A stretch of DNA of 64,000 nucleotides from Trifolium pratense (Eukaryota; Streptophyta; Magnoliopsida; Fabales; Fabaceae): contig NC_060059.1 of the NCBI RefSeq assembly GCF_020283565.1, forward strand, positions 43,980,215-44,044,214, in the 5' to 3' direction. The notes under the pieces are model-generated. The model ran no database searches and was not told the DNA's origin. It was given only the letters and a program-made list of their open reading frames with translations. The translations under genes were made by a program, and so were the position numbers. Positions 950 through 54,122 of this stretch are shown here, piece by piece. How positions within the stretch are numbered: the first letter of the stretch is position 1; each line of letters starts with the position of its first letter.

Positions 950-1343
950 ATATATAAAAAACAAAGGCTATTGTAGAGTGGTGGAGAAGAAGGTTAGAGA
1001 AACTAGAAAACTAGAAAGACAATAAAGTTTTGGAGGAAGAAGTTATGTTGTTAATTGTTGGATGATACAAGGTACATTGTGAACTCCTATTTATAGTAGA
1101 AGGAGCAACTACATAGCTTACATGCATGAAGGCAAGTGTCAAGAGAAATACATGCAACATGACAAGTGATAAAGAAAATACATGCATCTATACAAGTGGT
1201 AAGGGAAACTACATGCAATAATACAAGTGTGATACTTGCAACAAGCCAAGTGTATCACATACAAAATGTTATGGAGGGATCCTACAATGGATGGGCTTGG
1301 ATCACAATGGATATGGGCTTAAGAAGAACATCAATTTCTAACA
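950..1343 (-). repeat. 3' LTR of copia-A
   Basis: It aligns with 11253-11646 at a constant offset of 10303 bp with few differences. The outer 6 bp do not match the expected terminus, so the element's 3' end is altered. The inner end (TGTTAG on the minus strand) is intact and directly follows the polypurine tract. Confidence 0.85.
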
Positions 1344-1736
1344 CTCCTCCTTGATGTTTTTCTTGAATACTCCAAGCATTGACCTCAACTCTTCAAACTT
1401 TCCCTTGGAAAGAGCTTTAGTCATTATATCTGCAATTTGATTTTCTGAATTGCAATGCTCCAAACTGATTTCCTTTGACTTTTCAGCTTCTCTAATAGCA
1501 TGATATTTAACCTTGATGTGTTTGGTTCTTCCATGTTGGACTGGATTCTTTGTTATGGCAATAGCAGATTTGTTATCCACCCATATGACAGTAGCTTTGC
1601 TTTGAAATTGTCCCACATCTGATAAAATCTTCCTTAGCCAAATAGTTTGATTTATTGCTGCAGCAGCAGAAATATACTCAGCTTCAGCTGATGATTGGGC
1701 TACCACTTCTTGCTTCTTTGAATTCCATGAGAACAC
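1338..1736 (-). pseudogene. copia-A RNase H domain (C-terminal pol fragment)
   Basis: This 132-residue frame carries the end of a copia polyprotein. It has a SWNSKKQ..SSAEAEY motif, then WVDNKSAI, then the HIKVKYHAIRE and QIADIMTKAL blocks typical of copia RNase H. It should be continuous with the RT frame to its right but is in another frame. The break lies about 1736-1760, after DDAKSTS. It ends at the 3' LTR boundary. The domain would degrade RNA in RNA:DNA hybrids during reverse transcription, but here it is detached from RT. Confidence 0.85.
1344..1356 (-). other. Polypurine tract of copia-A
   Basis: On the minus strand an AAGGAGGAG purine run lies immediately before the TGTTAG start of the 3' LTR. 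This is the usual plus-strand primer site. Confidence 0.75.
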
Positions 1737-3715
1737 AGCACTGCCAAATGAGAAAACATAACCAGGTCTGAGGTACTTTTCGCATCATCTACACTTCCAG
1801 CCCAGTCACTATCTGTATATCCTTGGAGGTCTCCACTTTCATTTTTCAAGAAACGCAAACCATAATCAGTTGTACCCTTTATATACCTCAAAACTCTCTT
1901 AGCTGCACCAAGATGAACTTGACTTGGAGAATGCATGAACCTGGAAAGTAAGCTAGCAGCAAACATTATATCAGGTCTTGTTGCTGAAAGATACAACAAA
2001 CTTCCAATTATACTTCTATAAATAGAAGCATCTGCAGCATTATCACCATCATCCTTTGATAATTTTTCATTTACAACCAGAGGTGTGGAAACAGGCTTGG
2101 ATTTATCCATATGAAACTTCTTTAATACCTCCAAAGCATATTTCTTTTGTGAAATGAAGATTCCAACACTTGACTGAAAAATCTCCAATCCAAGAAAATA
2201 TTTCATTTCACCTAAATCTGTCATCTCAAATTCATTCTCCATAGCTTGCTTGAATTGACTTAGAGAATTGGATTCATTCCCTATAACCAACAAATCATCA
2301 ACATACAGGGACACTATTAGCTTCACTTCATTCTTCGACCACTTAACATACAAAGTAGCTTCATTTTCACTTCTTTTAAAACCACTTTGCAGGAGATAAC
2401 CATCAATTCTGTTATACCATGCTCTTGGTGCTTGTTTTAAGCCATAGAGGGCTTTGTGAAGCTTGTAAACTTTATTTTCACTTCCTGCAACCTTAAAACC
2501 TTCAGGTTGGTCGACATAAATGTCTTCATCAAGCAACCCATTTAAAAAAGCTGATTTAACATCAAAATTATAAATTTTACAGCCCAATTTTGCTGCTAAG
2601 GCAACCAACAGCCTAATTGTATCATGTCTTGCAACAGGTGCAAAAGTGTCTGAAAAATCAACACCATGTTGTTGAAAATAACCTTTTACCACCAATCTGG
2701 CCTTAAGTTTATTTATAGAACCATCAGGATTGAGTTTGGTTCTATAAACCCACTTAACACCAATAATCTTTTGATTTTCTAGTTTGTCTACAAGCTGCCA
2801 TATTTGATTTTTCTCTATCATCTTCATCTCCTCATGCATGGCAACTTTCCATCCTTCAACATTAGCAGCTTCAGCATACCGTGTAGGCTCTAATGTAGCT
2901 ATATTGCACATTGCATAAATATCATCCAAGGTTCTAGTACCTCGGATTGGAAAGTCATCATCACTATCATAGTTTGAATTTTCATCTTCCAAACTATCTT
3001 CAGCAGGCAATACCTTACTTGAACCTTCTGCTTGACTTTTCTCCCAATTCCATTTAGAGTACTCATCAAACTTCACATATCTGCTAACCAGAATTTTATT
3101 AGTCTCCAAATTATAAATTCGATACCCTTTGGAGTTACTGTTGTACCCCAAAAAGATACCAACCACAGATTTGGTTTCCAATTTATCTCTTTTCACACTT
3201 GGAACGTGAACATAACACACGCATCCAAATATTCTTAAATGTTCAACCGATGGCTTTCTTTCATACCATGCTTCAAAGGGTGTTTTTCCCTTCAAAGCTT
3301 TGGTAGGCAACAAATTCAACAAGTAAACCGAGGTGTTTACAGCCTCAGCCCAAAAAGTTTTAGGAATACCTTTCTCAAAGAGCAAACACCGGGCCATCTC
3401 CATGATGGTCCTGTTCTTCCTTTCGCTCACTCCATTTTGTTGAGGAGTGTAAGGAACAATAAATTGATATTGAATTCCAGCTTGCTCACAAAAGGTTTTA
3501 AATTCCCCTGCTGTATACTCAGTTCCATTATCAGATCTGAGCTTTTTAATCTGACAATCAGTCTCTCTTTCAACCATAAGTTTGAAACTCTGAAATGCAG
3601 GAAACACATTTAAAAAAGTTTGAAACTTTGTGAAGCTTGTAAACTTTATTTTCACTTCCTGCAACCTTAAAACCTTCAGGTTGGTCGACATAAATGTCTT
3701 CATCAGGCAACCCAT
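1700..3715 (-). pseudogene. copia-A integrase/RT segment continuing through RT (array copy 1)
   Basis: A 671-residue frame. Its N-terminal ~45 residues are out-of-context sequence created by a repeat junction. It then enters integrase (KLRSDNGTEYT, PYTPQQNGVSERKNRT), then the linker, then RT with FDVKSAFLNG and the YVDDLLVIG catalytic motif. It is the only copy in the array that continues past the RT N-terminal third. The frame is lost in RNase H near 1740. The part right of 2452 belongs to the tandem array. Confidence 0.88.
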
Positions 3716-4889
3716 TTAAAAAAGCTGATTTAACATCAAAATGATAAATTTTCCAGCCTAATTTTGCTGCTAAGGCAACCAATAACCTAATTGTATCATG
3801 TCTTGCAACAGGTGCAAAAGTGTCTGAAAAATCAACACCATGTTGTTGAAAATAACCTTTTACCACCAATCTGGCCTTAAGTTTATTTATAGAACCATCA
3901 GGATTGAGTTTGGTTCTATAAACCCACTTAACACCAATAATCTTTTGATTTTCTGGTTTGTCTACAAGCTGCCATATTTGATTTTTCTCTATCATCTTCA
4001 TTTCCTCATGCATGGCAACTTTCCATCCTTCAACATTAGCAGCTTCAGCATACCGTGTAGGCTCTAATGTAGCTATATTGCACCTTGCATAAATATCATC
4101 CAAGGTTCTAGTACATCGGATTGGAAAATCATCATCACTATCATAGTTTGAATTTTCATCTTCCAAACTATCTTCAGCAGGAAATACCTTACTTGAACCT
4201 TCTGCTTGACTTTTCTCCCAATTCCATTTAGAGTACTCATCAAACTTCACATATCTGCTAACCAGAATTTTATTAGTCTCCAAATTATAAATTCGATACC
4301 CTTTGGAGTTACTGTTGTACCCCAAAAAGATACCAACCACAGATTTGGTTTCCAATTTATCTCTTTTCACACTTGGAACGTGAACATAACACACGCATCC
4401 AAATATTCTTAAATGTTCAACCGATGGCTTTCTTTCATACCATGCTTCAAAGGGTGTTTTTCCCTTCAAGGCTTTGGTAGGCAACAAATTCAACAAGTAA
4501 ACTGAGGTGTTTACAGCCTCAGCCCAAAAAGTTTTAGGAATACCTTTCTCAAAGAGCAAACACCGGGCCATCTCCATGATGGTCCTGTTCTTCCTTTCGC
4601 TCACTCCATTTTGTTGAGGAGTGTAAGGAACAATAAATTGATATTGAATTCCAGCTTGCTCACAAAAGGTTTTAAATTCCCCTGCTGTATACTCAGTTCC
4701 ATTATCAGATCTGAGCTTTTTAATCTGACAATCAGTCTCTCTTTCAACCATAAGTTTGAAACTCTGAAATGCAGGAAACACATTTAAAAAAGTTTGAAAC
4801 TTTGTGAAGCTTGTAAACTTTATTTTCACTTCCTGCAACCTTAAAACCTTCAGGTTGGTCGACATAAATGTCTTCATCAGGCAACCCAT
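3570..4889 (-). pseudogene. Array copy 2: integrase-RT frame
   Basis: A 439-residue frame spanning one whole unit. It starts in RT sequence read out of frame, then gives integrase (SDNGTEYTAGEF, YTPQQNGVSERK), the linker with DSDDDFPIR, and RT up to VYKLHK, and stops after the filler-encoded tail. It lacks the YVDD catalytic block and RNase H, so no working RT can result. The same frame recurs in the next copies at +1174 bp steps. Confidence 0.85.
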
Positions 4890-6063
4890 TTAAAAAAGCT
4901 GATTTAACATCAAAATGATAAATTTTCCAGCCTAATTTTGCTGCTAAGGCAACCAATAACCTAATTGTATCATGTCTTGCAACAGGTGCAAAAGTGTCTG
5001 AAAAATCAACACCATGTTGTTGAAAATAACCTTTTACCACCAATCTGGCCTTAAGTTTATTTATAGAACCATCAGGATTGAGTTTGGTTCTATAAACCCA
5101 CTTAACACCAATAATCTTTTGATTTTCTGGTTTGTCTACAAGCTGCCATATTTGATTTTTCTCTATCATCTTCATTTCCTCATGCATGGCAACTTTCCAT
5201 CCTTCAACATTAGCAGCTTCAGCATACTGTGTAGGCTCTAATGTAGCTATATTGCACCTTGCATAAATATCATCCAAGGTTCTAGTACATCGGATTGGAA
5301 AATCATCATCACTATCATAGTTTGAATTTTCATCTTCCAAACTATCTTCAGCAGGAAATACCTTACTTGAACCTTCTGCTTGACTTTTCTCCCAATTCCA
5401 TTTAGAGTACTCATCAAACTTCACATATCTGCTAACCAGAATTTTATTAGTCTCCAAATTATAAATTCGATACCCTTTGGAGTTACTGTTGTACCCCAAA
5501 AAGATACCAACCACAGATTTGGTTTCCAATTTATCTCTTTTCACACTTGGAACGTGAACATAACACACGCATCCAAATATTCTTAAATGTTCAACCGATG
5601 GCTTTCTTTCATACCATGCTTCAAAGGGTGTTTTTCCCTTCAAGGCTTTGGTAGGCAACAAATTCAACAAGTAAACTGAGGTGTTTACAGCCTCAGCCCA
5701 AAAAGTTTTAGGAATACCTTTCTCAAAGAGCAAACACCGGGCCATCTCCATGATGGTCCTGTTCTTCCTTTCGCTCACTCCATTTTGTTGAGGAGTGTAA
5801 GGAACAATAAATTGATATTGAATTCCAGCTTGCTCACAAAAGGTTTTAAATTCCCCTGCTGTATACTCAGTTCCATTATCAGATCTGAGCTTTTTAATCT
5901 GACAATCAGTCTCTCTTTCAACCATAAGTTTGAAACTCTGAAATGCAGGAAACACATTTAAAAAAGTTTGAAACTTTGTGAAGCTTGTAAACTTTATTTT
6001 CACTTCCTGCAACCTTAAAACCTTCAGGTTGGTCGACATAAATGTCTTCATCAGGCAACCCAT
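4744..6063 (-). pseudogene. Array copy 3: integrase-RT frame
   Basis: A 439-residue frame nearly identical to copy 2. It carries one visible amino acid change (TQYAEA instead of TRYAEA, from a CpG-type transition near 5228). It has the same truncated RT and the same terminal stop after the junction. Confidence 0.85.
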
Positions 6064-7237
6064 TTAAAAAAGCTGATTTAACATCAAAATGATAAATTTT
6101 CCAGCCTAATTTTGCTGCTAAGGCAACCAATAACCTAATTGTATCATGTCTTGCAACAGGTGCAAAAGTGTCTGAAAAATCAACACCATGTTGTTGAAAA
6201 TAACCTTTTACCACCAATCTGGCCTTAAGTTTATTTATAGAACCATCAGGATTGAGTTTGGTTCTATAAACCCACTTAACACCAATAATCTTTTGATTTT
6301 CTGGTTTGTCTACAAGCTGCCATATTTGATTTTTCTCTATCATCTTCATTTCCTCATGCATGGCAACTTTCCATCCTTCAACATTAGCAGCTTCAGCATA
6401 CCGTGTAGGCTCTAATGTAGCTATATTGCACCTTGCATAAATATCATCCAAGGTTCTAGTACATCGGATTGGAAAATCATCATCACTATCATAGTTTGAA
6501 TTTTCATCTTCCAAACTATCTTCAGCAGGAAATACCTTACTTGAACCTTCTGCTTGACTTTTCTCCCAATTCCATTTAGAGTACTCATCAAACTTCACAT
6601 ATCTGCTAACCAGAATTTTATTAGTCTCCAAATTATAAATTCGATACCCTTTGGAGTTACTGTTGTACCCCAAAAAGATACCAACCACAGATTTGGTTTC
6701 CAATTTATCTCTTTTCACACTTGGAACGTGAACATAACACACGCATCCAAATATTCTTAAATGTTCAACCGATGGCTTTCTTTCATACCATGCTTCAAAG
6801 GGTGTTTTTCCCTTCAAGGCTTTGGTAGGCAACAAATTCAACAAGTAAACTGAGGTGTTTACAGCCTCAGCCCAAAAAGTTTTAGGAATACCTTTCTCAA
6901 AGAGCAAACACCGGGCCATCTCCATGATGGTCCTGTTCTTCCTTTCGCTCACTCCATTTTGTTGAGGAGTGTAAGGAACAATAAATTGATATTGAATTCC
7001 AGCTTGCTCACAAAAGGTTTTAAATTCCCCTGCTGTATACTCAGTTCCATTATCAGATCTGAGCTTTTTAATCTGACAATCAGTCTCTCTTTCAACCATA
7101 AGTTTGAAACTCTGAAATGCAGGAAACACATTTAAAAAAGTTTGAAACTTTGTGAAGCTTGTAAACTTTATTTTCACTTCCTGCAACCTTAAAACCTTCA
7201 GGTTGGTCGACATAAATGTCTTCATCAGGCAACCCAT
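5918..7237 (-). pseudogene. Array copy 4: integrase-RT frame
   Basis: A 439-residue frame that matches the copy 2 protein over its length by eye, including the WKIYHFDVK variant. It is truncated before the RT catalytic motif. Confidence 0.85.
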
Positions 7238-8411
7238 TTAAAAAAGCTGATTTAACATCAAAATAATAAATTTTCCAGCCTAATTTTGCTGCTAAGGCAA
7301 CCAACAGCCTAATTGTATCATGTCTTGCAACAGGTGCAAAAGTGTCTGAAAAATCAACACCATGTTGTTGAAAATAACCTTTTACCACCAATCTGGCCTT
7401 AAGTTTATTTATAGAACCATCAGGATTGAGTTTGGTTCTATAAACCCACTTAACACCAATAATCTTTTGATTTTCTGGTTTGTCTACAAGCTGCCATATT
7501 TGATTTTTCTCTATCATCTTCATTTCCTCATGCATGGCAACTTTCCATCCTTCAACATTAGCAGCTTCAGCATACCGTGTAGGCTCTAATGTAGCTATAT
7601 TGCACCTTGCATAAATATCATCCAAGGTTCTAGTACATCGGATTGGAAAATCATCATCACTATCATAGTTTGAATTTTCATCTTCCAAACTATCTTCAGC
7701 AGGAAATACCTTACTTGAACCTTCTGCTTGACTTTTCTCCCAATTCCATTTAGAGTACTCATCAAACTTCACATATCTGCTAACCAGAATTTTATTAGTC
7801 TCCAAATTATAAATTCGATACCCTTTGGAGTTACTGTTGTACCCCAAAAAGATACCAACCACAGATTTGGTTTCCAATTTATCTCTTTTCACACTTGGAA
7901 CGTGAACATAACACACGCATCCAAATATTCTTAAATGTTCAACCGATGGCTTTCTTTCATACCATGCTTCAAAGGGTGTTTTTCCCTTCAAGGCTTTGGT
8001 AGGCAACAAATTCAACAAGTAAACTGAGGTGTTTACAGCCTCAGCCCAAAAAGTTTTAGGAATACCTTTCTCAAAGAGCAAACACCGGGCCATCTCCATG
8101 ATGGTCCTGTTCTTCCTTTCGCTCACTCCATTTTGTTGAGGAGTGTAAGGAACAATAAATTGATATTGAATTCCAGCTTGCTCACAAAAGGTTTTAAATT
8201 CCCCTGCTGTATACTCAGTTCCATTATCAGATCTGAGCTTTTTAATCTGACAATCAGTCTCTCTTTCAACCATAAGTTTGAAACTCTGAAATGCAGGAAA
8301 CACATTTAAAAAAGTTTGAAACTTTGTGAAGCTTGTAAACTTTATTTTCACTTCCTGCAACCTTAAAACCTTCAGGTTGGTCGACATAAATGTCTTCATC
8401 AGGCAACCCAT
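7092..8411 (-). pseudogene. Array copy 5: integrase-RT frame
   Basis: A 439-residue frame like copies 2-4, but with YYFDVK in place of YHFDVK. At the DNA level it has ccaacagcc rather than ccaataacc near 7301, features shared with copy 6. It is truncated before the RT catalytic motif. Confidence 0.85.
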
Positions 8412-10146
8412 TTAAAAAAGCTGATTTAACATCAAAATAATAAATTTTCCAGCCTAATTTTGCTGCTAAGGCAACCAACAGCCTAATTGTATCATGTCTT
8501 GCAACAGGTGCAAAAGTGTCTGAAAAATCAACACCATGTTGTTGAAAATAACCTTTTACCACCAATCTGGCCTTAAGTTTATTTATAGAACCATCAGGAT
8601 TGAGTTTGGTTCTATAAACCCACTTAACACCAATAATCTTTTGATTTTCTGGTTTGTCTACAAGCTGCCATATTTGATTTTTCTCTATCATCTTCATCTC
8701 CTCATGCATGGCAACTTTCCATCCTTCAACATTAGCAGCTTCAGCATACCGTGTAGGCTCTAATGTAGCTATATTGCACCTTGCATAAATATCATCCAAG
8801 GTTCTAGTACATCGGATTGGAAAATCATCATCACTATCATAGTTTGAATTTTCATCTTCCAAACTATCTTCAGCAGGCAATACCTTACTTGAACCTTCGG
8901 CTTGACTTTTCTCCCAATTCCATTTAGAGTACTCATCAAACTTCACATATCTGCTAACCAGAATTTTATTAGTCTCCAAATTATAAATTCGATACCCTTT
9001 GGAGTTACTGTTGTACCCCAAAAAGATACCAACCACATATTTGGTTTCCAATTTATCTCTTTTCACACTTGGAACGTGAACATAACACACGCATCCAAAT
9101 ATTCTTAAATGTTCAACCGATGGCTTTCTTTCATACCATGCTTCAAAGGGTGTTTTTCCCTTCAAGGCTTTGGTAGGCAACAAATTCAACAAGTAAACTG
9201 AGGTGTTTACAGCCTCAGCCCAAAAAGTTTTAGGAATACCTTTCTCAAAGAGCAAACACCGGGCCATCTCCATGATGGTCCTGTTCTTCCTTTCGCTCAC
9301 TCCATTTTGTTGAGGAGTGTAAGGAACAATAAATTGATATTGAATTCCAGCTTGCTCACAAAAGGTTTTAAATTCCCCTGCTGTATACTTAGTTCCATTA
9401 TCAGATCTGAGCTTTTTAATCTGACAATCAGTCTCTCTTTCAACCATAAGTTTGAAACTCTGAAATGCAGGAAACACATCTGACTTCTGCTTAAGAAAAA
9501 ATACCCAGCTTATCCTTGTAAAATCATCTATAAATAGCAGAAAATACTTGCTGCCATTTAAAGATGTCGTTGGCATCGGACCACACACATCAGTGTGTAT
9601 CAGCTGTAACTTTTCAGAAGCTCTCCAGGTTGACGCAGCGGGAAATGACAATCTACTTTGTTTTCCATATTGACATACATCACACATGTCAACAACATCT
9701 TCGATGATTGGTAAATTTTCAACCAATTCATGAGAACTCATTTGTTTCAAGGTTGAGTAACTAAAGTGACCCAACCTTTTATGCCACAAGGAGGAATCAT
9801 TAACACTACTTGGAAAAGCATGCATGGTTGTTTGCTTCCACTCAATTTGAAAACTTTTACCCCTCATTTCAACAGTCATTAACATAGATCCAGCAGGATC
9901 TAGAATAGTGCATCTCTTGTCTTTGAAATGCAATGAATAGTTCTTCTCCATCATTTGCCCCACACTTAAAAGACTTTGATTTATTTCAGGTACAAATAAA
10001 ACATCTGAGATATATTTGATACCTGAGGGAGTTTCAACAGCTACAACACATTTTCCTTTGACATCAACATGTTCTCCATTGCCAATAGTAACTTTAGAGA
10101 AGAAGGACTTATCAAGTTCCTTAAAAATGCCAACATTATGAGTCAT
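8266..10146 (-). pseudogene. copia-A protease (partial)-GAG_pre-integrase-integrase-RT frame (array copy 6)
   Basis: A 626-residue frame. It begins just after the protease active-site loop (TNHMTHNVGIF). It runs through the protease body (SLLSVGQM) and the GAG-pre-integrase zinc-binding region (LWHKRLGHFS ... CDVCQYGKQSR). It then enters integrase (IHTDVCGPM, FIDDFTR, KLRSDNGT, PQQNGVSERK) and the N-terminal part of RT, and stops after the first array junction. It is the only array copy joined to genuine upstream pol sequence. Just upstream, an in-frame TGA and an Asp-to-Tyr change in the DSG protease motif (reads IYSGC) inactivate the protease. Confidence 0.88.
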
Positions 10147-11239: not shown

Positions 11240-11252
11240 GCTCTTGATACCA
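11240..11252 (-). other. Primer binding site of copia-A
   Basis: The minus strand reads TGGTATCAAGAGC directly after the 5' LTR end CTTACA. This is close to the complement of the 3' end of initiator methionine tRNA (TGGTATCAGAGC), with one inserted A. Confidence 0.8.
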
Positions 11253-11646
11253 TGTAAGAAAAAACAAAGGCTATTGTAGAGTGGTGGAGAAGAAGGTTAG
11301 AGAAACTGGAAAACTAGAAAGACAATAAAGTTTTGGAGGAAGAAGTTATGTTGTTAATTGTTGGATGATACAAGGTACATTGTGAACTCCTATTTATAGT
11401 AGAAGGAGCAACTACATAGCTTACATGCATGAAGGCAAGTGTTAAGAGAAATACATGCAACATGACAAGTGGTAAAGAAAATACATGCATCTATACAAGT
11501 GGTAAGGGAAACTACATGCAATAATACAAGTGTGATACTTGCAACAAGCCAAGTGTATCACATACAAAATGTTATGGAGGGATCCTACAATGGATGGGCT
11601 TGGATCACAATGGATATGGGCTTAAGAAGAACATCAATTTCTAACA
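11253..11646 (-). repeat. 5' LTR of copia-A
   Basis: 394 bp. On the minus strand it begins TGTTAG and ends CTTACA, giving the canonical TG...CA. It contains a TATA-like tatttatagt stretch at about 11391-11400 that could be the promoter. It abuts ARF-like exon sequence at 11647. Confidence 0.88.
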
Positions 11647-11921
11647 CTTAGAATCTGGCTATCTTGCTGATGTTTTTTCACCAACACCGACTATTGTTCC
11701 ACCGAACCTGCATGATCAAAGACAAATATACTGAGCAAAACAAAGAAAATGAATTCAGAAGATTATACGACAATAATAGATGCACATGATGTATGCAGCA
11801 CCTCCTCTCAGGAACTTCATCGCCCTCAAATCCCATCTTAAACCTCATGCCAACAGATAGCTTGTGACTTTGAGCTTCAAGGTATTTGTTCCCACTAACA
11901 ATAAACTCAGATCGACTAGTC
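11647..11921 (-). pseudogene. Auxin response factor (ARF) fragment, two exons
   Basis: Exon A (11802-11921) follows a TTACAG acceptor. It encodes [14 protein letters not shown], then [19 protein letters not shown]. After an intron, exon B (11647-11707) encodes [11 protein letters not shown] and ends PDSK exactly at the copia-A LTR. These are the conserved Auxin_resp region blocks of ARF transcription factors, which bind auxin response elements. There is an in-frame stop before PDS where ARFs have Trp, and the fragment has no B3 domain or C-terminus here. The remainder is not found on the far side of the copia element, so this is a fragment rather than a simply interrupted gene. Confidence 0.8.
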
Positions 11922-12372
11922 CTGTAACAAGATTGTTAGTTTATTCCGGTAAAGAACACTATTTGTAGTCTAAATTACATATGTTGAGAACGTGATAAAG
12001 TTTACAAAAGTGAACGACCACAAGGTAAGTGGTAAAAAAGGTTGAAATTATTTTAACAAGGACCACAATAATGTGTAACATAATAACATCACAACTTTAT
12101 AAGATGGCACTACTTTATATATTTAAAATCGAATAAAAAATTGAGCGGGGACTGAAACCACTATACCCCTTCCCTAGGAACCGGAGGCTGAAAACTGTTA
12201 GAAATAAAAAATCGAATAAAAAATGCAGCACATTATAACACAACGATTGAAGCAGAGATCAGTTTCGACAGCAACAAGAGGTACCCAGCTGACCAGCTCC
12301 ATTAATGGTGGTTATTTTTTGGTTTAATAGAGGTTGAAGGTGGTGGTTGTGATGTGTTTGTAGTTAAAAATG

Positions 12373-27305: not shown

Positions 27306-27842
27306 AATAATGAAGGAGTGATTGGTTGAAGATGATAGATGGGAATGGATGGTTTTGGATGCAAGAAAATTAAGGGATTTGGGTTGTCTGATGGTGGAGT
27401 TAACCATTCTTATATTATTGAAGTATTAAATGAGGAGAGGATGCAGATAACAGAATTGATGTCAAGAGAGGAAGGATTAGCGCATACATTCATCAATTTT
27501 AATTTGTTGATTGGCCATGGATATGTAGATGTATACACATACATCATGATCAAAACACTAGCCATTAAGATACAGCATATCCCAAGGCATGCATACATAA
27601 ATATGAATACATTGATATATCATCATAATGTAAGAGATGCAAGAAGAGAACTACCTATTATAAGAGATGATCAAAACCTTCAAGCTAGATCAAACTCCAC
27701 CCTTTATCTGCAAAAAAACACAATCTCATCAAATGTTTGAAAATAAATCATTTTTCATTCTACAAACATAAAAAAGAGATATTTAAAAGCTGAAACTGTA
27801 ACACCCAAACCCCTTAACGCGTATTTATTGAATATAAATAAA

Positions 27843-28114
27843 TAAAACACTTAAGAAAATTCAGGCGTCACATGTTATAATACAAAACCACGGCATAATT
27901 AAATCAATCATGCTAGCACAGCGGAAATTAAAAATGATATTTATCATAATGTATATCATACAATGATCATAATTGTTATAAAACACTTAAGAAAATTCAG
28001 GCGTCACATGTTATAATACAAAACCACGGCATAATTAAATCAATCATGCTAGCACAGCGGAAATTAAAAATGATATTTATCATAATGTATATCATACAAT
28101 GATCATAATTGTTC
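27843..28114. repeat. 136-bp tandem duplication present in only one LTR
   Basis: The block from taaaacacttaagaaaattc through tcataattgtta occurs twice head to tail here and once in the other LTR (from about 34548). It arose during or after the last transposition. Confidence 0.93.
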
Positions 28115-29105
28115 ACACAATATCCCTAGGCTCTAGGCCATATCAACAAAGGATATTATGTTTACAACCCAAAAGATAGGATTAGCAAAGTTAAATATGT
28201 CATCACGGGCTTAGATACAAATCAAGCGAATATCCCATCACGGTATTACACCTAATCAGAGCAACTCTATACAACCCGTCAAAAGAGATATACAAATATA
28301 TCTAAAGGAGTAGTCTAAGCTAAACTCCTCACCAAAAAGCGCACTACACGAGCACGAGCAACCTCTAACTTTGATCGGGATCCTCAACCTGAGAATCTGA
28401 ACCCCCAACGGTCCAGCACATAACACAAAGCATGAGAGTTAGATCACATAATCAAAATATAAGTGTAAGCAAAAGGTACTTAAACACTCCTTCAACAACA
28501 ACAAGCATATTCATAATTTATAAACATGCATCGCCATTAACTACTCAATTACAAGTTCTAAACATGTATAATCAAGTACCAAATAATCAATCTACAATTC
28601 ATTACACTTAGCCAAATTATATGTCACATATCACTTATCAAGTAATGCACACACATATAACCTAATGCAACTCTAATGCTTCAACTTCATGAATGTCAAT
28701 CCTAGACATTACTAATGCATGTGGTACCATCTTCTTTATTAGAGTATCTCACCTCTAATATCCTTCTTTATCGGATAAATATAATCCGATATACTTCTTT
28801 ATTGGAATATCCAATATCCTATTTAATTCATGAATGCATGTATATGTGTTCATGAATTCACTCACAAATAATTAGCATAAGCTCTTCATTTACTATGTGG
28901 AACACTATCCAACATACTTCATCATTAAGATTTAACAAAACCTTAATATTCTTCATTTATACTTCATACATGATTAACAATCATTATAAGCTTCAACAAG
29001 CATCAACAAGCATCAACAATCATCAACAATCATGTAAGAATAAGCCACTGATTGAAAATACATGCAAAGGAAGACAGCAGATGAAAAATTGGTGAAAACT
29101 GCAGT

Positions 29106-29126
29106 ATTTCCGCCTGGGGCGGAAAT
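29106..29126. promoter_or_regulatory. Perfect 9-bp palindrome arm pair in LTR, with GAGGCG repeats
   Basis: ATTTCCGCC-TGG-GGCGGAAAT. It is followed up to about 29260 by recurring acgtttgaggcg, acgttttaggcg and gcctgaggcg units. The same block is at 35675-35695 in the 5' LTR. TTTCCGCC resembles an E2F-type site, but binding is not shown. Confidence 0.55.
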
Positions 29127-29973
29127 TTTTACGTTTGAGGCGTAAGTTTACGTTTTAGGCGCAAAAATTTACGTTTGAGGCGCAGAAAAGTCTGAAAGGT
29201 TGGCTGCTCACTGCTCTTCCGTTTCAGGCGGAAATTATTGCGCCTGAGGCGAAAAAACATGCGTTTTCTACACAAAAACGCCCAAAAATCTCATTTTTCA
29301 TGATATAAATCCCAAAAGAGTTTGTATTCAAGCAAAACAAACATATCTAAACACAAAAGGACGGTTCATTTCTCAGATCTACGCCATAAACATCGAAAAA
29401 GTAAAGATTGACACTTTTTCATCAAAACTCTCAAGAACACAAAGTTCTTGAGTTTAATCCATTAGAAAACTCGTTTTAACCATTATCTTCGTTCATTAAT
29501 CATGTTACAAGCATGTTAAACATATTAAGAACCTTAGGAACGATTTCCATCAAGAAAATCCATTCCAATCTAAAACGAAAATGGGGTGGAGGAAGTTCGG
29601 GTAAGGAGAAATCGACATTCTCCCCTTCCTCGAATCACCCACGACTATGGAACCTACTCTCATACCTGGATTCGAAGAAAACTCGAAGATTTGATCTTGA
29701 TTCTCCTCACTTTCCCTTGCCCTAGCTCTTGAGCTCTCTTCTCTCTCCAACTTGTCAAGAACAAGAACAAATGAAATGTTCTCTCTTGACTTGGCCATAT
29801 GGCCGCCCCACTCATGCTCACAAGGCCCGTTGGGCCTCAAGCCCAATTGGCTTGGCCCAATAACACGATAACTCTCACTACTCGCTTAATAACTAAAGTA
29901 TTCGATAAATAACTCTAGTTATTAACTTAATTAAATTTCTACGTTAATAAAATACTTTAACACATAAAAATTA

Positions 29974-32900
29974 TTAATTTGAAAATTGGGTCGTTACAAC
30001 TCTACCCTCCTTAAAGAATTTTCGCCCTCGAAAATTACCTGGAAATAACTCTGGATACGAACTCATCATCTTGCTCTCCAATTCCCAAGTCGCATTCTCA
30101 CCAGCGGGTCCTCCCCATACCACCTTCACCGAGGCGATATCCTTGTTTCTCAACCTCTTCACTTCTCTACCTTCGATCCTCAAAGGTACAACATCGACCG
30201 TTAAGTCATCCCTCACTTGAACATCATCCGATTCAATCACATGTGACGGGTCTCTAACATATTTCCTCAATTGTGACACGTGAAACACATCGTGCAAATT
30301 CGCCAATGATGGCGGCAAAGCAATCCTATACGCCACTTTCCCCACTCTTTTCAAAATCTGATAAGGACCAATAAACTTCGACGTCAACTTCCTCGACTTC
30401 AAAGCACGTCCAATTCCGGTAGTCGATGTAACTCTTAAGAAAACATGATCACCTTCTTGAAATTCAATGTCCTTCCTCCTCTTGTCATGATAACTCTTTT
30501 GACGACTCTGAGACGCTTTCATCTTCTCTCTAATCATTCTAATCTTTTCCGTAGTCTCTTGCACAATCTCCGGACCAAGAATCATACTCTCTCCGGATTC
30601 AAACCAACAAAGCGGTGTTCTACACCTCCTTCCATACAAAGCCTCAAAAGGTGCCATTCCAATACTCGAATGAAAACTATTGTTGTACGTGAACTCGATC
30701 AACGGCAAACACGAATCCCAACTTACTCCTTGCTCCAAAACACAAGCTCTCAACAAATCTTCCAAAGATTGTATCGTCCTTTCCGATTGGCCATCCGTTT
30801 GAGGATGATAAGCCGAACTCAACCTCAACTTAGTCCCTAAAGCCTCTTGCAAACTTTTCCAAAATCTCGAAGTAAACCTCGGATCTCGATCCGAAACAAT
30901 ACTCGACAGAATACCGTGCAACTTCACAATTTGCTCCACATAGATCTCGGCCAACTTAGGCACCAAGGTACCTTTCTTAATAGCAATAAAATGCGCACAC
31001 TTCGTCAAACGATCCACTACCACCCAAATCACTTCATAACCTTTCGTAGTCTTGGGTAAACCTCCCACAAAATCCATCGCAATACTATCCCACTTCCATT
31101 CCGGGATAAACAAAGGTTGCAACAAACCAGACGGTTTCTGATGCTCAATCTTCGACTTCTGACACACTAGGCAAGCATAAACAAACTCAGAAATTTGCCT
31201 CTTCATTCCTGGCCACCAAAATAACTTCTTCAAGTCTTGATACATCTTGGTTACTCCCGGGTGAATACTCATTCCACTCCTATGACCTTCTTCCAAAATC
31301 ATCTTCTTCATCTCGGGCACATCGGGCACGCACACTCTTCCATGAAATCTCACAACTCCATTCTCGTCAACTTTGAAATTAGCTTCTTTTCCTTCCTCAA
31401 CTACTATTGCCAACTTCTCCATTAACTTCTTATCCGTCTTTTGACATTCTTTGATATTCTCCAGAAAAGGATTCGTCAACTTCAACATTCCCAATTTAAC
31501 ACTCTTAGGAGTCACTTCACATACTAGACTCAAGTCTCGAAATTCTTCAATCAACTCTAACTCTTTCACCATTAGTGATGACATGTGCAACGATTTCCTA
31601 CTTAACGCATCGGCCACCACATTAGCTTTTCCGGGGTGATAACTCAAATCAAAGTCATAGTCCTTCAAAAATTCGAGCCATCTTCTTTGTCTCATATTCA
31701 ACTCCTTCTGATCGAATAGATACTTCAAACTCTTGTGATCACTAAAGACTTCAAACTTCGATCCATACAAGTAATGCCTCCATACCTTCAATGAAAACAC
31801 AACTGCGGCTAACTCAAGATCGTGTGTCGGATAGTTCCTCTCGTGAACCTTCAGTTGTCTCGACGCATACGCTACCACTTGACCTTTTTGCATAAGCACA
31901 CCTCCTAGTCCCATCTTCGAAGCATCACAATACACGACGAAAGATTCCTTAGCATCCGGTAAAATCAACACAGGCGCGGTAGTCAACCTCTTCTTAAGCT
32001 CTTGAAAACTTTCTTCACACTTCACATCCCAAACAAACGCTTGATCCTTCCGAGTCAACTGCGTCAAAGGCAAAGCCAACTTCGAAAATCCTTCAATGAA
32101 TCTCCTATAATAACCGGCCAATCCAAGAAAACTTCTTATCTCAGAAACAGACTCCGGCGTTCCCCATTGCAATACGGCATCAACTTTCGCTGGGTCAACC
32201 GCTATTCCTCCACTTGAAATCACATGACCAAGAAAACTTACTTCTTTCAACCAAAATTCACACTTCGACAATTTGGCATACAACTTCTTCTCCTTCAAAA
32301 CTTGCAAAACAATCCGCAAATGCTCCTTATGTTCCTCTTCGGACTTTGAGTAAACTAAAATATCATCGATGAATACCACTACAAACTTATCCAAGAATGA
32401 ATGAAAAATCCTATTCATGTACTCCATAAAAACACCAGGTGCATTGGTCACACCAAAAGGCATCACCGAATATTCATAATGACCATACCTCGTCCTAAAA
32501 GCAGTCTTTGGTATATCCTCCGTTTTCACTCGAATCTGATGGTATCCGGATCTCAAATCAATCTTACTAAACACGCAAGCTCCAACCAATTGATCCATTA
32601 AATCATCTATCCTCGGAAGTGGATACTTATTCTTGATCGTCACTTTGTTCAACTGTCGGTAGTCAATACACAACCTCATACTCCCTTCTTTCTTCTTAAC
32701 CAACAACACAGGTGCACCCCACGGCGATACACTAGGTCGAATAAACTTCTTCTCAAGTAGTTCTTCTAGTTGCTTCTTCAACTCATTCAACTCTGACGCT
32801 GACATTCTATACGGTGCCATAGATATCGGACTAGTACCAGGTACCAAATCGATCGTAAACTCTACTTCTCTCTTCGGCGGTACATCTGACACGTCTTCCG

Positions 32901-34501: not shown

Positions 34502-36567
34502 TGTAACACCCAAACCCCTTAACGCGTATTTATTGAATATAAATAAATAAAACACTTAAGAAAATTCAGGCGTCACATGTTATAATACAAAACCACGGCA
34601 TAATTAAATCAATCATGCTAGCACAGCGGAAATTAAAAATGATATTTATCATAATGTATATCATACAATGATCATAATTGTTCACACAATATCCCTAGGC
34701 TCTAGGCCATATCAACAAAGGATATTATGTTTACAACCCAAAAGATAGGATTAGCAAAGTTAAATATGCCATCACGGGCTTAGATACAAATCAAGCGAAT
34801 ATCCCATCACGGTATTACACCTAATCAGAGCAACTCTATACAACCCGTCAAAAGAGATATACAAATATATCTAAAGGAGTAGTCTAAGCTAAACTCCTCA
34901 CCAAAAAGCGCACTACACGAGCACGAGCAACCTCTAACTTTGATCGGGATCCTCAACCTGAGAATCTGAACCCCCAACGGTCCAGCACATAACACAAAGC
35001 ATGAGAGTTAGATCACATAATCAAAATATAAGTGTAAGCAAAAGGTACTTAAACACTCCTTCAACAACAACAAGCATATTCATAATTTATAAACATGCAT
35101 CGCCATTAACTACTCAATTACAAGTTCTAAACATGTATAATCAAGTACCAAATAATCAATCTACAATTCATTACACTTAGCCAAATTATATGTCACATAT
35201 CACTTATCAAGTAATGCACACACATATAACCTAATGCAACTCTAATGCTTCAACTTCATGAATGTCAATCCTAGACATTACTAATGCATGTGGTACCATC
35301 TTCTTTATTAGAGTATCTCACCTCTAATATCCTTCTTTATCGGATAAATATAATCCGATATACTTCTTTATTGGAATATCCAATATCCTATTTAATTCAT
35401 GAATGCATGTATATGTGTTCATGAATTCACTCACAAATAATTAGCATAAGCTCTTCATTTACTATGTGGAACACTATCCAACATACTTCATCATTAAGAT
35501 TTAACAAAACCTTAATATTCTTCATTTATACTTCATACATGATTAACAATCATTATAAGCTTCAACAAGCATCAACAAGCATCAACAATCATCAACAATC
35601 ATGTAAGAATAAGCCACTGATTGAAAATACATGCAAAGGAAGACAGCAGATGAAAAATTGGTGAAAACTGCAGTATTTCCGCCTGGGGCGGAAATTTTTA
35701 CGTTTGAGGCGTAAGTTTACGTTTTAGGCGCAAAAATTTACGTTTGAGGCGCAGAAAAGTCTGAAAGGTTGGCTGCTCACTGCTCTTCCGTTTCAGGCGG
35801 AAATTATTGCGCCTGAGGCGGAAAAACATGCGTTTTCTACACAAAAACGCCCAAAAATCTCATTTTTCATGTTATAAATCCCAAAAGAGTTTGTATTCAA
35901 GCAAAACAAACATATCTAAACACAAAAGGACGGTTCATTTCTCAGATCTACGCCATAAACATCGAAAAAGTAAAGATTGACACTTTTTCATCAAAACTCT
36001 CAAGAACACAAAGTTCTTGAGTTTAATCCATTAGAAAACTCGTTTTAACCATTATCTCCGTTCATTAATCATGTTACAAGCATGTTAAACATATTAAGAA
36101 CCTTAGGAACGATTTCCATCAAGAAAATTCATTCCAATCTAAAACGAAAATGGGGTGGAGGAAGTTCGGGTAAGGAGAAATCGACATTCTCCCCTTCCTC
36201 GAATCACCCACGACTATGGAACCTACTCTCATACCTGGATTCGAAGAAAACTCGAAGATTTGATCTTGATTCTCCTCACTTTCCCTTGCCCTAGCTCTTG
36301 AGCTCTCTTCTCTCTCCAACTTGTCAAGAACAAGAACAAATGAAATGTTCTCTCTTGACTTGGCCATATGGCCGCCCCACTCATGCTCACAAGGCCCATT
36401 GGGCCTCAAGCCCAATTGGCTTGGCCCAATAACACGATAACTCTCACTACTCGCTTAATAACTAAAGTATTCGATAAATAACTCTAGTTATTAACTTAAT
36501 TAAATTTCTACGTTAATAAAATACTTTAACACATAAAAATTATTAATTTGAAAATTGGGTCGTTACA
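34502..36567 (-). repeat. 5' LTR of the Ty3 element
   Basis: 2066 bp, TGTAAC...GTTACA, flanked on the outer side by target duplication gaaac (36568-36572). It carries the promoter-side palindrome at 35675-35695. Confidence 0.95.
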
Positions 36568-49438: not shown

Positions 49439-49467
49439 TTGTTAACACTCTAAATTAAGTGCAGTTT

Positions 49468-49611
49468 TGTTAAGGTTCAAACTAACCTTCTTGGTATTAT
49501 TCATCATCCATAATGGTCTTATATAGGCAACATACCTAATACAAGCCAATGGGCCAAAGTACACCAATTACACAATGGGCCTAAGTCTATAATGAGGCCC
49601 AATACACAACA
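49468..49611 (-). repeat. 3' LTR of copia-B
   Basis: 144 bp, one transition relative to the other LTR (t versus c in ggcaaca(t/c)acc). A tcttatataggc TATA-like stretch is present. Confidence 0.95.
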
Positions 49612-49623
49612 TATCCTCCCTTA
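49612..49623 (-). other. Polypurine tract of copia-B
   Basis: AAGGGAGGATA on the minus strand directly precedes the TGTTGTG start of the 3' LTR. Confidence 0.75.
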
Positions 49624-49803
49624 ATTGTATAATTATACAATTATCAATCAAAGGAAGTAAACAAGATAACAAAACTAAAACAAAAACAAGCTACAAAAAC
49701 AGATGATTCTAGTGTGCTCATAGGCGTGCTCAACTGCTGATAGGCCTAAGAAGCAGACAGGCCAGACAAGGTAAGCCAGGCAAGGCAGGTTTCACACGCA
49801 GGC

Positions 49804-51519
49804 TTACTTTTGAGCAGCTATCATTCCAAACTCTTTCTTTAACTTCACAAAAGTGTCTAGCTTCAATGGTTTTGTCATCAGATCAGCTAATTGTTCTTGA
49901 GAAGTGCAATACTTAAGCTCCACAATTCCTTCTCTTGCTAGATTTCTCAAGAAGTGAAATCTCACATCTATATGTTTGCAACGACCATGCATAATGGGAT
50001 TCTTTGACAATTTGATAGATGAGCTGTTATCACAGTAGATCATAGTAGTATTACCCTGAACAATTTTCAAATGCTTCAGAACACTCTTCAGCCATATACA
50101 TTGACAAGCACAATGTGAAGCTGCAACATACTCAGCCTCAGTTGTAGATAGTGTTACAATGGGCTGCTTCTTTGATGACCACGATATAGCACCTGATCCA
50201 AGCATAAACACATAGCCTGATGTGCTCTTTCTATCATCCAAATCTCCTGCATAGTCAGAATCTGACCATCCAACTAGTTCAATTTCTTCAGCAGAGTGAT
50301 TATACATAATACCATCTGTAAGTGTGCCTTTCGAGTACCTCATGATTCTTTTTATGGCTACAACATGCATCTCAGTTGGCCTATCCATAAATCTAGCAAC
50401 TAAACATACAGAGTAAGCTAGGTCAGGTCTTGTAGCAAGCAGATACATTAAGCATCCAACCATGTGCTTGTACTCTCTAACATCAGTAGCAATTCCACTT
50501 TCATTCTTGACAAGCTTGCATCCAGGCACAATTGGGCTGCATACTTCATTGCAATTCTCCATTCCAAATCTCTTTAGAATTTCAACTGCATATTTGTATT
50601 GGTTTTTGAATATACCTTTCTCAGATTGGATGACTTCAACTCCAAGAAAGTATTTCATTTTTCCTAAATCAGTCATGGCAAATTTCCTTTTCATTGATTC
50701 TTTGAAGGAATGAACCATATCCATGTCATTACCAGTACAAATTAAGTCATCAACATATAAACTCACAATCAAAATTTTCCCACCATCACCAAATTTCACA
50801 AACAATGTATATTCTTGAGAGCACCTTTCAAATTTTTCTAGGTTGAAGTAGCTTTCAATTTTACTGTACCATGCTCTGGGAGCTTGCTTCAAACCATACA
50901 AGGCCTTTTTCAGTTTGCATACCTTGTTCTTGCTGCCCTTTTGATAGCCAAGAGGTTGCTCCACATAGATATCTTCATCCAATTCACCATGTAAAAAGGC
51001 ACTTTTTACATCTAATTGAAACACATTCCAGTTTTCCTTGGCAGCTAAGGCAAAAATAGTTCTTATAGTATCCCACCTTGCAACTGGAGCAAAGACCTCA
51101 TTATAATCAATTCCATACTTTTGACTGTATCCCTTAGCAACCAGCCTAGCTTTATGCTTCTCTATCTCTCCCTTTTCATTATACTTTGTTTTGAAAATCC
51201 ATTTAACACCAATTGCATTGGCTCCACCTGGTAAGCTAGTCAACTGCCAAGTATCATTGTTTTTAATTGACTCCATCTCTTGATCCATTGCAATTTTCCA
51301 AATGTCAAGTTTTGCAGCTTCTTCATAGTTTTTTGGATCTTCTGCAGGAGTGTAGATGGCAAGGTTGTGTAATTCTTCTTCATTGTCAAGTTCACTTCCT
51401 GACACATAATCACTAAGACCTGCAGGTGGTCTTCTGTTTCTTGGAGCTAGTGAAGTTGATGCTTGATTCTCATTATCAGAGTCACTTGGAGTTTGTATTG
51501 GATTCAAAGGTTCACTCAT
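49804..51519 (-). pseudogene. copia-B RT and RNase H (intact 571-aa stretch of a broken polyprotein)
   Basis: RT has WIFKTKYNEKGEIEKHKARL, FQLDVKSAFLHGELDEDIYV, LYGLKQAPRAWY and catalytic YVDDLICTGND. RNase H has WSDSDYAGDLDDRKSTSGY, STTEAEY, YCDNSSSI and HIDVRFHFLR. Both domains look complete to the natural stop at 49804. The Met at 51519 is internal, not a true start: the same frame continues upstream to the stop at 51640. Confidence 0.9.
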
Positions 51520-51639
51520 ATCAGAGTCACTCTCATCATCATTGTCACTTGTCTCAACTGTGACTAGTTCATTTGTTTCTGCTTCAAATTCATCTATAGT
51601 AACTTCACTAATTTTCTTAGTGTCAGGTTTACTCCACTC

Positions 51640-51855
51640 TCAACCTTTCTTTTCTTCAAATATCACATCTCTGCTGACAATAATTTTTTGCTTCTTTGGA
51701 TCATATAGCTTGTAGGCTTTTGATTCCTCACTAACTCCCAGAAGGATACATTTGATACTTTTGTCATCTAGTTTGGTTCTTTGAGCATCTGGTATGTGAG
51801 CAAATGCTAAGCAAACCAAACACTCTAAAGTGATGAACAGCAGGCTTGTTTCCAC
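51640..51855 (-). pseudogene. copia-B integrase C-terminal part, after the frameshift
   Basis: Reads LAFAHIPDAQRTKLDDKSIK, then CILLGVSEESKAYKLYDP, the usual post-core integrase block, ending at an in-frame TGA (51640-51642). Its first ~12 residues are out of frame. Confidence 0.85.
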
Positions 51856-51994
51856 TCCAAGCTTCTTCTGGTGTCATGTTTATGACAGACAAAGTAGGGC
51901 TTCTGTTCATGACATAGGTAGCCCATTTAACTGCTTCAGGCCAGAAAGTTTTAGGTACATTCCTTCCAGCTAACATGCTTCTAACCATATTCAT
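51764..51994 (-). pseudogene. copia-B integrase core C-terminal part, before the frameshift
   Basis: Begins at the Met after the lost PQQNGV block and reads GRNVPKTFWPEAVKWATYVM and NRSPTLSV, up to HHFRVFG. Then the frame is lost through one extra T in a short T run near 51817. Confidence 0.85.
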
Positions 51995-52030
51995 TAATTT
52001 CCTATTCTTTCTTTCAGATACCCCATTCTG

Positions 52031-53476
52031 CTATGGAGTATAAGCAGTGGTCAACTGTCTTTTGATTCCTTGCTTGCTACAAAAGTCATTAAAAATAGTT
52101 GATACAAATTCACCACCCCTATCTGTTCTTAGGCATTGTATTACACATTCAGATTCTTTTTCAACTAATGCTTTAAAAGTTTTGAAAGTATCTAATGCAC
52201 TAGATTTTTCTTTCAAAAAATAGATCCAAGTTTTTCTTGAGAAGTCATCTGTGAAGGTTATAAAGTACCTGTTCCCTCCATTGCTCCTTGGATTGATGGG
52301 GCCACATATATCAGAGTGAACCAGTTCCAATCTCTTGCTGGCTCTCCAAGTAGCCTGTTTAGGAATGTTTTCTCTGTGTTGCTTGCCAGTCAAGCAATCT
52401 ACACATTTTGCATCAATCTTAGCCAATGTTGGTAGACCTTTTACCATTTCTTTTTTGGCCAAAATGTTCAGACCTTTGATGCTCAAATGAGCAAATCTAT
52501 CATGCCATATTCTGGCTAGATCATCATTTGAAGCTTTCAAGCACTTAGGGGTTATTACTGCAGCATTAACAATATACATTATGTTGGCTGACATCTGAGT
52601 AGAGAAGAGTAAACCTTTGTCATCATAAAAAATCCTGCAACTGTCATTTTTGAAAATGATGGTTACATTCTTTTGTTGAATTTGTCCAATGCTGAGTAGA
52701 TTAGTTTTAAGGCCTGTAATGTAATATACTTCAGTTATTACAGTTATTCTACCATTGATGTTCAGCTTGATATTTCCCTTGCCCATAACATTCATTTTTG
52801 AGTCATCTCCAAGTTTCACAACATCTCTATAGCTTTCATCAAGCTCATATAACCACTTTTTATTTCCAACCATGTGGTTGCTGCATCCTGAATCTAAGTA
52901 CCATTTTTCATATTCAGATTCATCTTGATTGGTGTTGGCCATGAGAAGAAATTCTTCTTCACCATCAAACTCAGCATACTTTGCAGCCTCTTCCCAAGTG
53001 GGGCACTCATTTCTATAGTGTCCTAACTTGTGACACTTAAAGCATTCCACAGTTTCCCTATTAATTCTTCCTCTGCCACGCCCTCTTGAAGAGCTTCTTC
53101 CCTTCCCTCTGCCTGCATTGGCAGCCTTCAGGGCTTGTTCATCATGACTAGTATGTTTCCCTTCCATTCTCTGCTCATGAACAATGAGACTGCTTTGAAG
53201 TGCATCAATTGAAAGTTGGGTAACATCATTAGATTCTTCTATCGAGCAAGTAACATAGTTGAATCTTTCAGGCATAGAACGCAAAATCTTTTCTACAATT
53301 GTGACCTGTTCCATTCTTTCTCCATGGGAAGTCATCTTGTTTGCAGTAGCCATCGTTCTTGCAAAGAATTCATTGACTGTTTCACTCTCCCCCATCTCAA
53401 GAACTTCAAACTCTTTGCGCAAGGCTTGAAGTTGAGCTCGTTTCACCTTGGTGGAACCTTTATACTTCAATCGCAT
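52031..53476 (-). pseudogene. copia-B gag (C-terminal part)-protease-integrase (N-terminal part)
   Basis: Contains the gag CCHC knuckle CFKCHKLGHYRNEC after an RGKGRSSSRGRGRGR basic stretch. The protease has WYLDSGCSNHM with the catalytic Asp present. The GAG-pre-integrase has IWHDRFAHLS and CVDCLTGKQHRE; the integrase core has HSDICGPI, FTDDFSRKTW and LRTDRGGEF. It ends at a TAG (52031-52033) where a Gln of the PQQNG motif is expected. The 5' limit is set by the upstream gag stop. Confidence 0.9.
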
Positions 53477-53482
53477 AGCATC

Positions 53483-53764
53483 CTAGATATCTTTCGAGGT
53501 ATCTTTAGACAGAATGGTTTCAAGAATCTCACGATCAATGGAATGGAACAAGTAATTCTTTACCTTCATATCAGTGATCTTTCTAGCATTGGCTGCCTGA
53601 ACCTGCTCTGCTGTTGCATTCGGTGGTGCCACTGTGACACCATTCTCAATTAAAGACCAGTACTCCCTTGATCGGAGTAAATTCTCCATCAACATCGCCC
53701 AATGATCATAAAAGCCATCAAATCTTGGAATTGATGGTTTATGAAAGTCAGAGTTCTCCGCCAT
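53483..53764 (-). pseudogene. copia-B gag N-terminus
   Basis: 94 codons from MAENSDFHKPSIPRFDG with DHWAMLMENLLRS. It ends at a TAG (53483-53485) at a position where gag proteins carry Trp (AKDIWDAM-type context). The downstream gag frame resumes in the same phase. Confidence 0.88.
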
Positions 53765-53963
53765 TGATGATTGATGAAATCAAGCAAGGAGGAGGAATAC
53801 ACCGGAGAAGAAAGAACAATGCTTGTGTTTTGACACTGGTGGATGAACGAATCGTGAAAGAAAGGATGAAGATTGATGAAGAAAGTTGCAAAGAAAACGG
53901 CTGCAACTGTGTAACTAACTTTTGAGTTGGTTTTGCTAAACCGGGTCGGGTCCTTGGGTCTGA

Positions 53964-53976
53964 GGCTCTGATACTA
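53964..53976 (-). other. Primer binding site of copia-B
   Basis: TAGTATCAGAGCC on the minus strand, just after the 5' LTR. It has one mismatch to the initiator methionine tRNA complement TGGTATCAGAGC. Confidence 0.8.
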
Positions 53977-53978
53977 CT

Positions 53979-54122
53979 TGTTAAGGTTCAAACTAACCTT
54001 CTTGGTATTATTCATCATCCATAATGGTCTTATATAGGCAACACACCTAATACAAGCCAATGGGCCAAAGTACACCAATTACACAATGGGCCTAAGTCTA
54101 TAATGAGGCCCAATACACAACA
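53979..54122 (-). repeat. 5' LTR of copia-B
   Basis: 144 bp, TGTT...AACA, outer flank agttt matching the other side. Confidence 0.95.

Follow-up and report, generated by a model that had tools for sequence, protein, structure and literature searches.

A stretch of 64,000 nucleotides from the Trifolium pratense genome (C1:43980215-44044214, called the window here) holds a Ty1/copia long terminal repeat (LTR) retrotransposon on the minus strand, and part of its pol coding sequence is present as a tandem array. The array spans 2452-9479 and consists of six head-to-tail units that start at 2452, 3626, 4800, 5974, 7148 and 8322. Units 1-5 are 1174 bp each, made of 1158 bp of element sequence and a 16-nt filler, and unit 6 is 1158 bp and lacks the filler. 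When the window was compared with itself at a lag of 1174, identity ran from 2452 to 8305 (partner position 9479), staying at 0.96-1.0 in 100-base steps within the array and dropping to 0.2-0.4 beyond it. Identity between units is 98.7-100%, 18 of the 1158 common positions vary, and the junction string that joins them occurs five times in the window.

2452..3609, minus strand: unit 1 core, 1158 bp, running on into the native reverse transcriptase (RT)/RNase H region
3610..3625: filler of junction 1, 16 nt
3626..4783, minus strand: unit 2 core, the same in sequence as unit 4
4784..4799: filler of junction 2, 16 nt
4800..5957, minus strand: unit 3 core, one base different from units 2 and 4
5958..5973: filler of junction 3, 16 nt
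5974..7131, minus strand: unit 4 core
7132..7147: filler of junction 4, 16 nt
7148..8305, minus strand: unit 5 core, differing by 3 bases from unit 2 and by 5 from unit 6
8306..8321: filler of junction 5, 16 nt
8322..9479, minus strand: unit 6 core, running on into the native gag/integrase region

An earlier note made from the bare sequence had described six head-to-tail copies at a fixed period of 1174 bp, and its coordinates, period and copy number all proved exact. The same 16-nt filler closes units 1-5, as expected from the five identical junctions, spaced 1174 bp apart, that the note had reported. Pfam domains also bear out the copia integrase-to-RT origin that it had proposed, as each unit codes for the end of the integrase core, an SH3-like domain and the first half of RVT_2. 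The Tandem Repeats Finder (TRF) program, whose longest period is 500, did not report the array. Chance is not a credible account of this structure. The array is real, and the exact number of its inner units rests on the assembly because unit 2 cannot be told from unit 4 and unit 3 is one base away from both.

The host element has the domain order of a copia retrotransposon, with integrase upstream of reverse transcriptase: Pfam matches run from a copia-type gag through Pol_BBD, pre-integrase, integrase (rve) and SH3_retrovirus to RVT_2. Its LTRs are ~390 bp long and 99.2% identical (3 mismatches over 390 aligned bases), and ten other LTR pairs that we compared have 0 to 5 differences each. The 5' LTR has TG..CA ends, the outer end of the 3' LTR is missing, and a primer binding site and a polypurine tract lie at the inner borders.

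956..1343, minus strand: 3' LTR (left on the plus strand), its outer ~6 bp and the left target-site copy gone by comparison with an empty-site paralog (below)
1344..1352, minus strand: putative polypurine tract, AAGGAGGAG on the minus strand, adjoining the 3' LTR; its role is inferred from LTR-element anatomy
11241..11252, minus strand: putative primer binding site, TGGTATCAAGAG on the minus strand, read directly
11253..11646, minus strand: 5' LTR

We take the primer binding site TGGTATCAAGAG to be of the initiator-tRNA-Met type. A 132-amino-acid (aa) open reading frame (ORF) after the RT had no Pfam match at E 0.001, and it presumably represents a copia RNase H, as it reads like one. With five units subtracted, the element would measure ~4.8 kb, the same size as its relatives (for example L010, at C3:40903589). 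This copy looks broken outside the array too, since no single ORF spans the gag/pol border or the RNase H region either.

We searched the T. pratense assembly (413.6 Mb, 90 contigs) with the unit and its junction. We scored 40 of 564 first-look candidates, so that the counts are lower bounds. There were at least 46 matches, six of them the array units themselves. At least 17 were other full-length copies of the unit, with 96-98% identity, on C1-C6; the remainder comprised at least one partial copy (95%), at least four pieces of two copies with interrupted units, and at least 18 distant matches (65-73%). Two of the family copies, L009 (C3:40941244) and L010, lie 37.7 kb apart and have identical units, perhaps through segmental duplication. 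A pattern search of the assembly for the junction, allowing up to 3 mismatches, returned five matches, all in the array and all with 0 mismatches, and the reversed control pattern returned none. Where the earlier note had asked whether the array exists elsewhere or in longer form, the answer for this assembly is this locus only, with its five junctions.

A second unit is absent from all 20 other family copies that we examined, as is the junction, even with up to 5 substitutions allowed. Native sequence spans the left breakpoint in all 20 and the right breakpoint in 19, the exception being L026, whose unit is truncated. The array is therefore confined to one locus of this assembly. We reject its transposition within this genome, given that the junction occurs nowhere else in the assembly and in 0 of the 20 family copies.

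The filler and its borders are explained by two exact 12-mers of the unit, both on the same strand.

2539..2550, plus strand: 12 bases that match filler patch 1, at unit position 88-99 and some 90-100 bp in from one of the broken ends
3578..3589, plus strand: 12 bases that match filler patch 2, at unit position 1127-1138 and some 20-31 bp in from the opposite end

The patches are chained to each other and to the borders by overlaps of 3 nt (CAT), 3 nt (AAG) and 2 nt (CT). Among 100,000 random fillers drawn from an order-1 Markov model, two were wholly covered by two anchored patches and none reached the observed patch lengths. The observed patch sum was likewise reached by none of 20,000 random fillers anchored in the unit or of 20,000 anchored in the whole element. 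When the patches were left unanchored (n = 20,000), the fraction that reached it was 0.0002 for the unit on the same strand and 0.0057 for the whole element on both strands. A templated patchwork filler with microhomology is a known mark of DNA polymerase theta-mediated end joining. The short insertion seen here, templated near the ends as two 12-mers and joined by 3, 3 and 2 nt of microhomology, has this hallmark and resembles a theta-type scar.

We reconstructed the history of the units from a tree of all six together with 17 of the 20 family copies; L026-L028, whose units are cut or interrupted, were left out. The six units form one clade against the 17 family copies (support 100/99). Because the units are monophyletic and the other copies have neither a second unit nor the junction, the array had a single origin, in this copy. 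On the strength of the same clade we reject separate duplications in several copies. Within it the topology is (U1,(U6,(U5,(U3,(U2=U4))))), where U1-U6 are units 1-6; the fork that joins U5 to U2-U4 has support of 89/84, below the level that the tool marks with a star.

Bases polarised by the 17 family copies follow this order. Units 2-6 have common derived bases at three sites (2532, 2585 and 2941) where U1 keeps the usual family base, U2-U5 at 2828 and 3008, and U2-U4 at two more, 2609 and 2611, so that derived bases are nested from U6 through U5 to U2-U4 at all sites except one. U1 has seven changes of its own, and U6 has three of its own and one in common with U5; the two are nearly equidistant from their common ancestor (~7 changes each). 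The edge units U1 and U6 differ at 13 of 1158 positions. The inner units U2-U4 differ by 0-1, a satellite-like homogenisation of the interior. The three inner units have 1 terminal change and the two edge units have 10 (p = 7e-4); with 1 of 3474 bases changed, the inner units are also younger than the LTR pair, with 3 of 780 (p = 0.02). Since the inner units are younger than both the edge units and the LTRs, the array probably began as a pair of units and grew to six later, in at least two steps. At the rate of 1.3e-8 substitutions per site per year known from rice, rough ages would be ~0.3 My for the LTRs, ~0.4 My for U1-U6 and ~0.02 My for U2-U4.

The insertion site itself is legible because a tandem paralog of it, C1:43978258-43979697, lies just left of the window and lacks the element. 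This empty site is a duplicate of an auxin response factor gene region and corresponds to 46-959 and 11647-12302 of the window, with 75% identity in the left part and 93-94% in the right.

11647..11651: surviving right target-site copy CTTAG, adjoining the 5' LTR and matching the insertion point of the empty-site paralog
11681..11935, minus strand: host auxin response factor exon (ARF_AD, PF06507, E = 1.9e-10), on the right flank of the insertion

CTTAG is present in the paralog at the insertion point, and in the window only the right copy of the target-site duplication is kept. At the left edge CTTAG is missing, as are ~25-30 bp of flanking sequence and the final ~6 bp of the 3' LTR. We read this as a probable normal insertion followed by deletion at the left edge, and not as the absence of an integrase-made insertion. 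A long inverted repeat lies beside the element at 65-822 and recurs at C1:43978299-43978941 (arm identity ~75% and 70%). Because it is found at both tandem paralogs, it is older than the copia insertion, and it is a possible source of a hairpin.

We favor an origin by break-repair duplication in a recently inserted copia element, followed by recombinational growth in situ, and give this account a probability of roughly 0.6. The Ty1/copia element would have inserted recently and then acquired a 1158-bp tandem duplication inside pol. The break would have been repaired by polymerase theta-mediated end joining, probably with the sister chromatid, and the joining step would have copied two short patches from beside the broken ends into the junction to leave the 16-nt templated filler. 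The resulting pair of long direct repeats could then have recombined, by unequal exchange or conversion, with a sister chromatid or a homologue. Expansion to six units and the homogenisation of the inner ones would have taken two or more such steps, the latest of them recent. The array would be a by-product without demonstrated function, the pol frame being broken at every junction. The enzyme, the unequal exchange and the growth in situ are the parts that we infer, and the last of these is supported by the empty-site paralog and the surviving CTTAG, which indicate an ordinary insertion at this place.

Several observations weigh against this account. A tandem duplication of 1158 bp is longer than those known from paired-nick repair, sequence cannot identify polymerase theta as the enzyme, and our filler statistic was picked after the filler had been seen. 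The tree accommodates site 2569 (unit position 118) only if a base there reverted or was converted, and the derived bases at 2585, 2611 and 2828, together with the private base of unit 3 at 2880, also occur in 1-4 of the 17 family copies. The timing is a further difficulty. Divergence between U1 and U6 (13/1158) is not below that between the LTRs (3/390). The probability that at least 13 of the 16 changes fall in the unit is 0.40 if the duplication was simultaneous with insertion and 0.22 if three quarters of the residence of the element came after it; it falls to 0.06 for a duplication at half of the residence and to 0.002 at one quarter, which disfavors a duplication later than about half of the residence. 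The first duplication was thus probably early, at reverse transcription, at integration or within the first half of residence. Such an early date counts against an old insertion that suffered a recent accident, and it keeps weight on an origin during reverse transcription.

Six changes, 5 of them nonsynonymous and 1 synonymous, are common to all units and absent from the 17 family copies. They could be a sign that unselected change preceded the duplication, although a comparison with older variation in the family (18 nonsynonymous to 22 synonymous) gave p = 0.19. A different comparison points in the opposite direction, since the LTRs should differ more if all six changes came after insertion (p = 0.025). 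No changes were common to both LTRs yet absent from the family LTRs compared.

The first duplication could instead have been made in the virus-like particle, by abnormal strand transfer at reverse transcription, with only the growth to six being chromosomal. The age of the U1-U6 pair fits that of the LTRs, as the value of 0.40 for simultaneous events indicates, and illegitimate recombination or abnormal strand transfer is a hypothesis for the 3' untranslated region (UTR) repeats of Tat/Ogre elements cited in Vondrak et al. (PMC7004042). This route, however, requires three successive jumps on 2-3 nt of homology, the patchwork copied from beside both ends looks more like end joining than like jumps of a reverse transcriptase, and the search of this genome found the junction in no second insertion. 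We therefore consider it doubtful, while still deserving some weight. Template switching at a replication fork, of the MMBIR/FoSTeS type (microhomology-mediated break-induced replication/fork stalling and template switching), might also have made the first duplication and its filler before unequal exchange took over. In its favor, the two patches share a strand and microhomology links them; yet end joining explains short-range sources beside both sides of the join equally well or better, and although sequence alone cannot separate the two, we regard template switching as unlikely. An assembly artefact, in the form of a looped or miscounted repeat, would account for the identity of U2 and U4. 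We find it very improbable, as the 18 variable sites are mostly nested, the edge units are 13 bases apart, the 16-nt filler is found nowhere else, and the host parts of the flanks match, over their length, only this place and the neighboring paralog.

Because 1174 is not a multiple of 3, the reading frame shifts at each junction. The result is a series of four chimeric ORFs of 439 aa in the array, flanked by two longer ORFs.

3570..4889, minus strand: 439-aa chimeric ORF (example), with further copies at 4744-6063, 5918-7237 and 7092-8411

Each is laid out as an out-of-frame start, the integrase end with SH3 and half of the RT, and an out-of-frame tail past the junction; the Pfam scan covered only the copy at 3570..4889. 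A protein search with the chimeric ORF scored 7964 candidates and found 4636 proteins. The best listed match was a copia protein of Cajanus cajan, at 78%, and none of the 120 matches listed spans more than 90% of the query, so that none of those listed includes the whole junction tail. Within the array, changes number 11 nonsynonymous to 8 synonymous, compared with a neutral expectation of ~2.7:1, and we read this informal comparison as no clear constraint. A functional array, serving as a template for small interfering RNA (siRNA) or selected as a set of ORFs, has the four open chimeric frames in its favor and is nonetheless very improbable, since that ratio gives no clear sign of constraint, youth accounts for the open frames, and direct repeats form no hairpin. 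We rejected a foldback double-stranded RNA (dsRNA) role of the array as unsupported, and the suggestion that it is a template for long dsRNA or siRNA found no support, for the repeats are direct and not inverted.

The array is a young, nascent tandem array derived from a transposable element (TE) at a single locus, and not yet a satellite. Satellites have long homogenised arrays, usually in many copies or at many loci, and here there are six units at one locus. The idea of a satellite in formation accordingly stands as far as recent growth is concerned, U2-U4 being nearly identical, and is otherwise unproven. We tentatively suggest that a satellite is being born here: one theta-type scar in pol would have seeded the array, whose growth is legible unit by unit and may be ongoing, with copy number varying between individuals.

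Tandem repeats derived from retrotransposons are well known, mostly from LTRs and UTRs in the accounts available (PMC3648361, PMC7004042, PMC11963269). The amplification of the center of pol had been called unusual, and this holds only in degree; satellites with TE coding sequence are on record, and a review describes a gag-like frame in a rye satellite and LINE ORF2 in others, noting that any TE part may serve in satellites (PMC9659126). A search of the literature on arrays of retrotransposon coding sequence, made with few sets of terms and weak as evidence of absence, found no copia pol tandem array in the titles and opening lines of abstracts among the records listed.

The T. pratense array resembles CRM1TR and CRM4TR of maize (Sharma et al. 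2013, PMC3648361), which are tandem arrays wholly from LTR retrotransposons. For these, a start by illegitimate recombination and growth by gene conversion were proposed, unequal exchange not being excluded in that account. As described there, the maize repeats consist of LTR and UTR sequence from centromeric elements of the Ty3/gypsy type, are located in or near centromeres and go back at least ~4 and ~1 My; the array studied here is made of copia pol coding sequence, and its six units share a single locus where the patchwork scar of its start can still be identified. The 3' UTR repeats of Ogre/Tat elements in Lathyrus sativus, and the satellites derived from them, are similar in that a short array inside an LTR element is a possible satellite seed. 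Those arrays, by that report, lie downstream of gag-pol and were spread by their carrier elements, whereas ours lies inside pol and was found in one element only (PMC7004042). The rye gag-frame and LINE ORF2-related satellites likewise have TE coding sequence in the tandem unit, but the review presents them as named satellite families (PMC9659126), and here the six units are still surrounded by their parent element.

Little is usually left of the first steps in the birth of a tandem array. In this genome the seed scar survives together with the parent element, the empty site and relatives with a single unit, which makes the order of events readable and testable: one scar like that of end joining, and then recombinational expansion. 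The locus indicates that the coding middle of a copia element, besides LTRs and UTRs, is able to seed an array, and it offers an early, datable view of how satellite-like DNA can start.

Two other retroelements lie in the window. A second LTR element, of the Ty3/gypsy type, at 27797-29998 and 34502-36567, has one open frame of 1467 aa. Its left LTR contains a perfect 136-bp tandem duplication (27842-28113) that is not in the right LTR and therefore probably arose after insertion. Another copia element or remnant, at 49467-54122, has a long RT ORF and 145-bp direct repeats (49467-49611 and 53978-54122).

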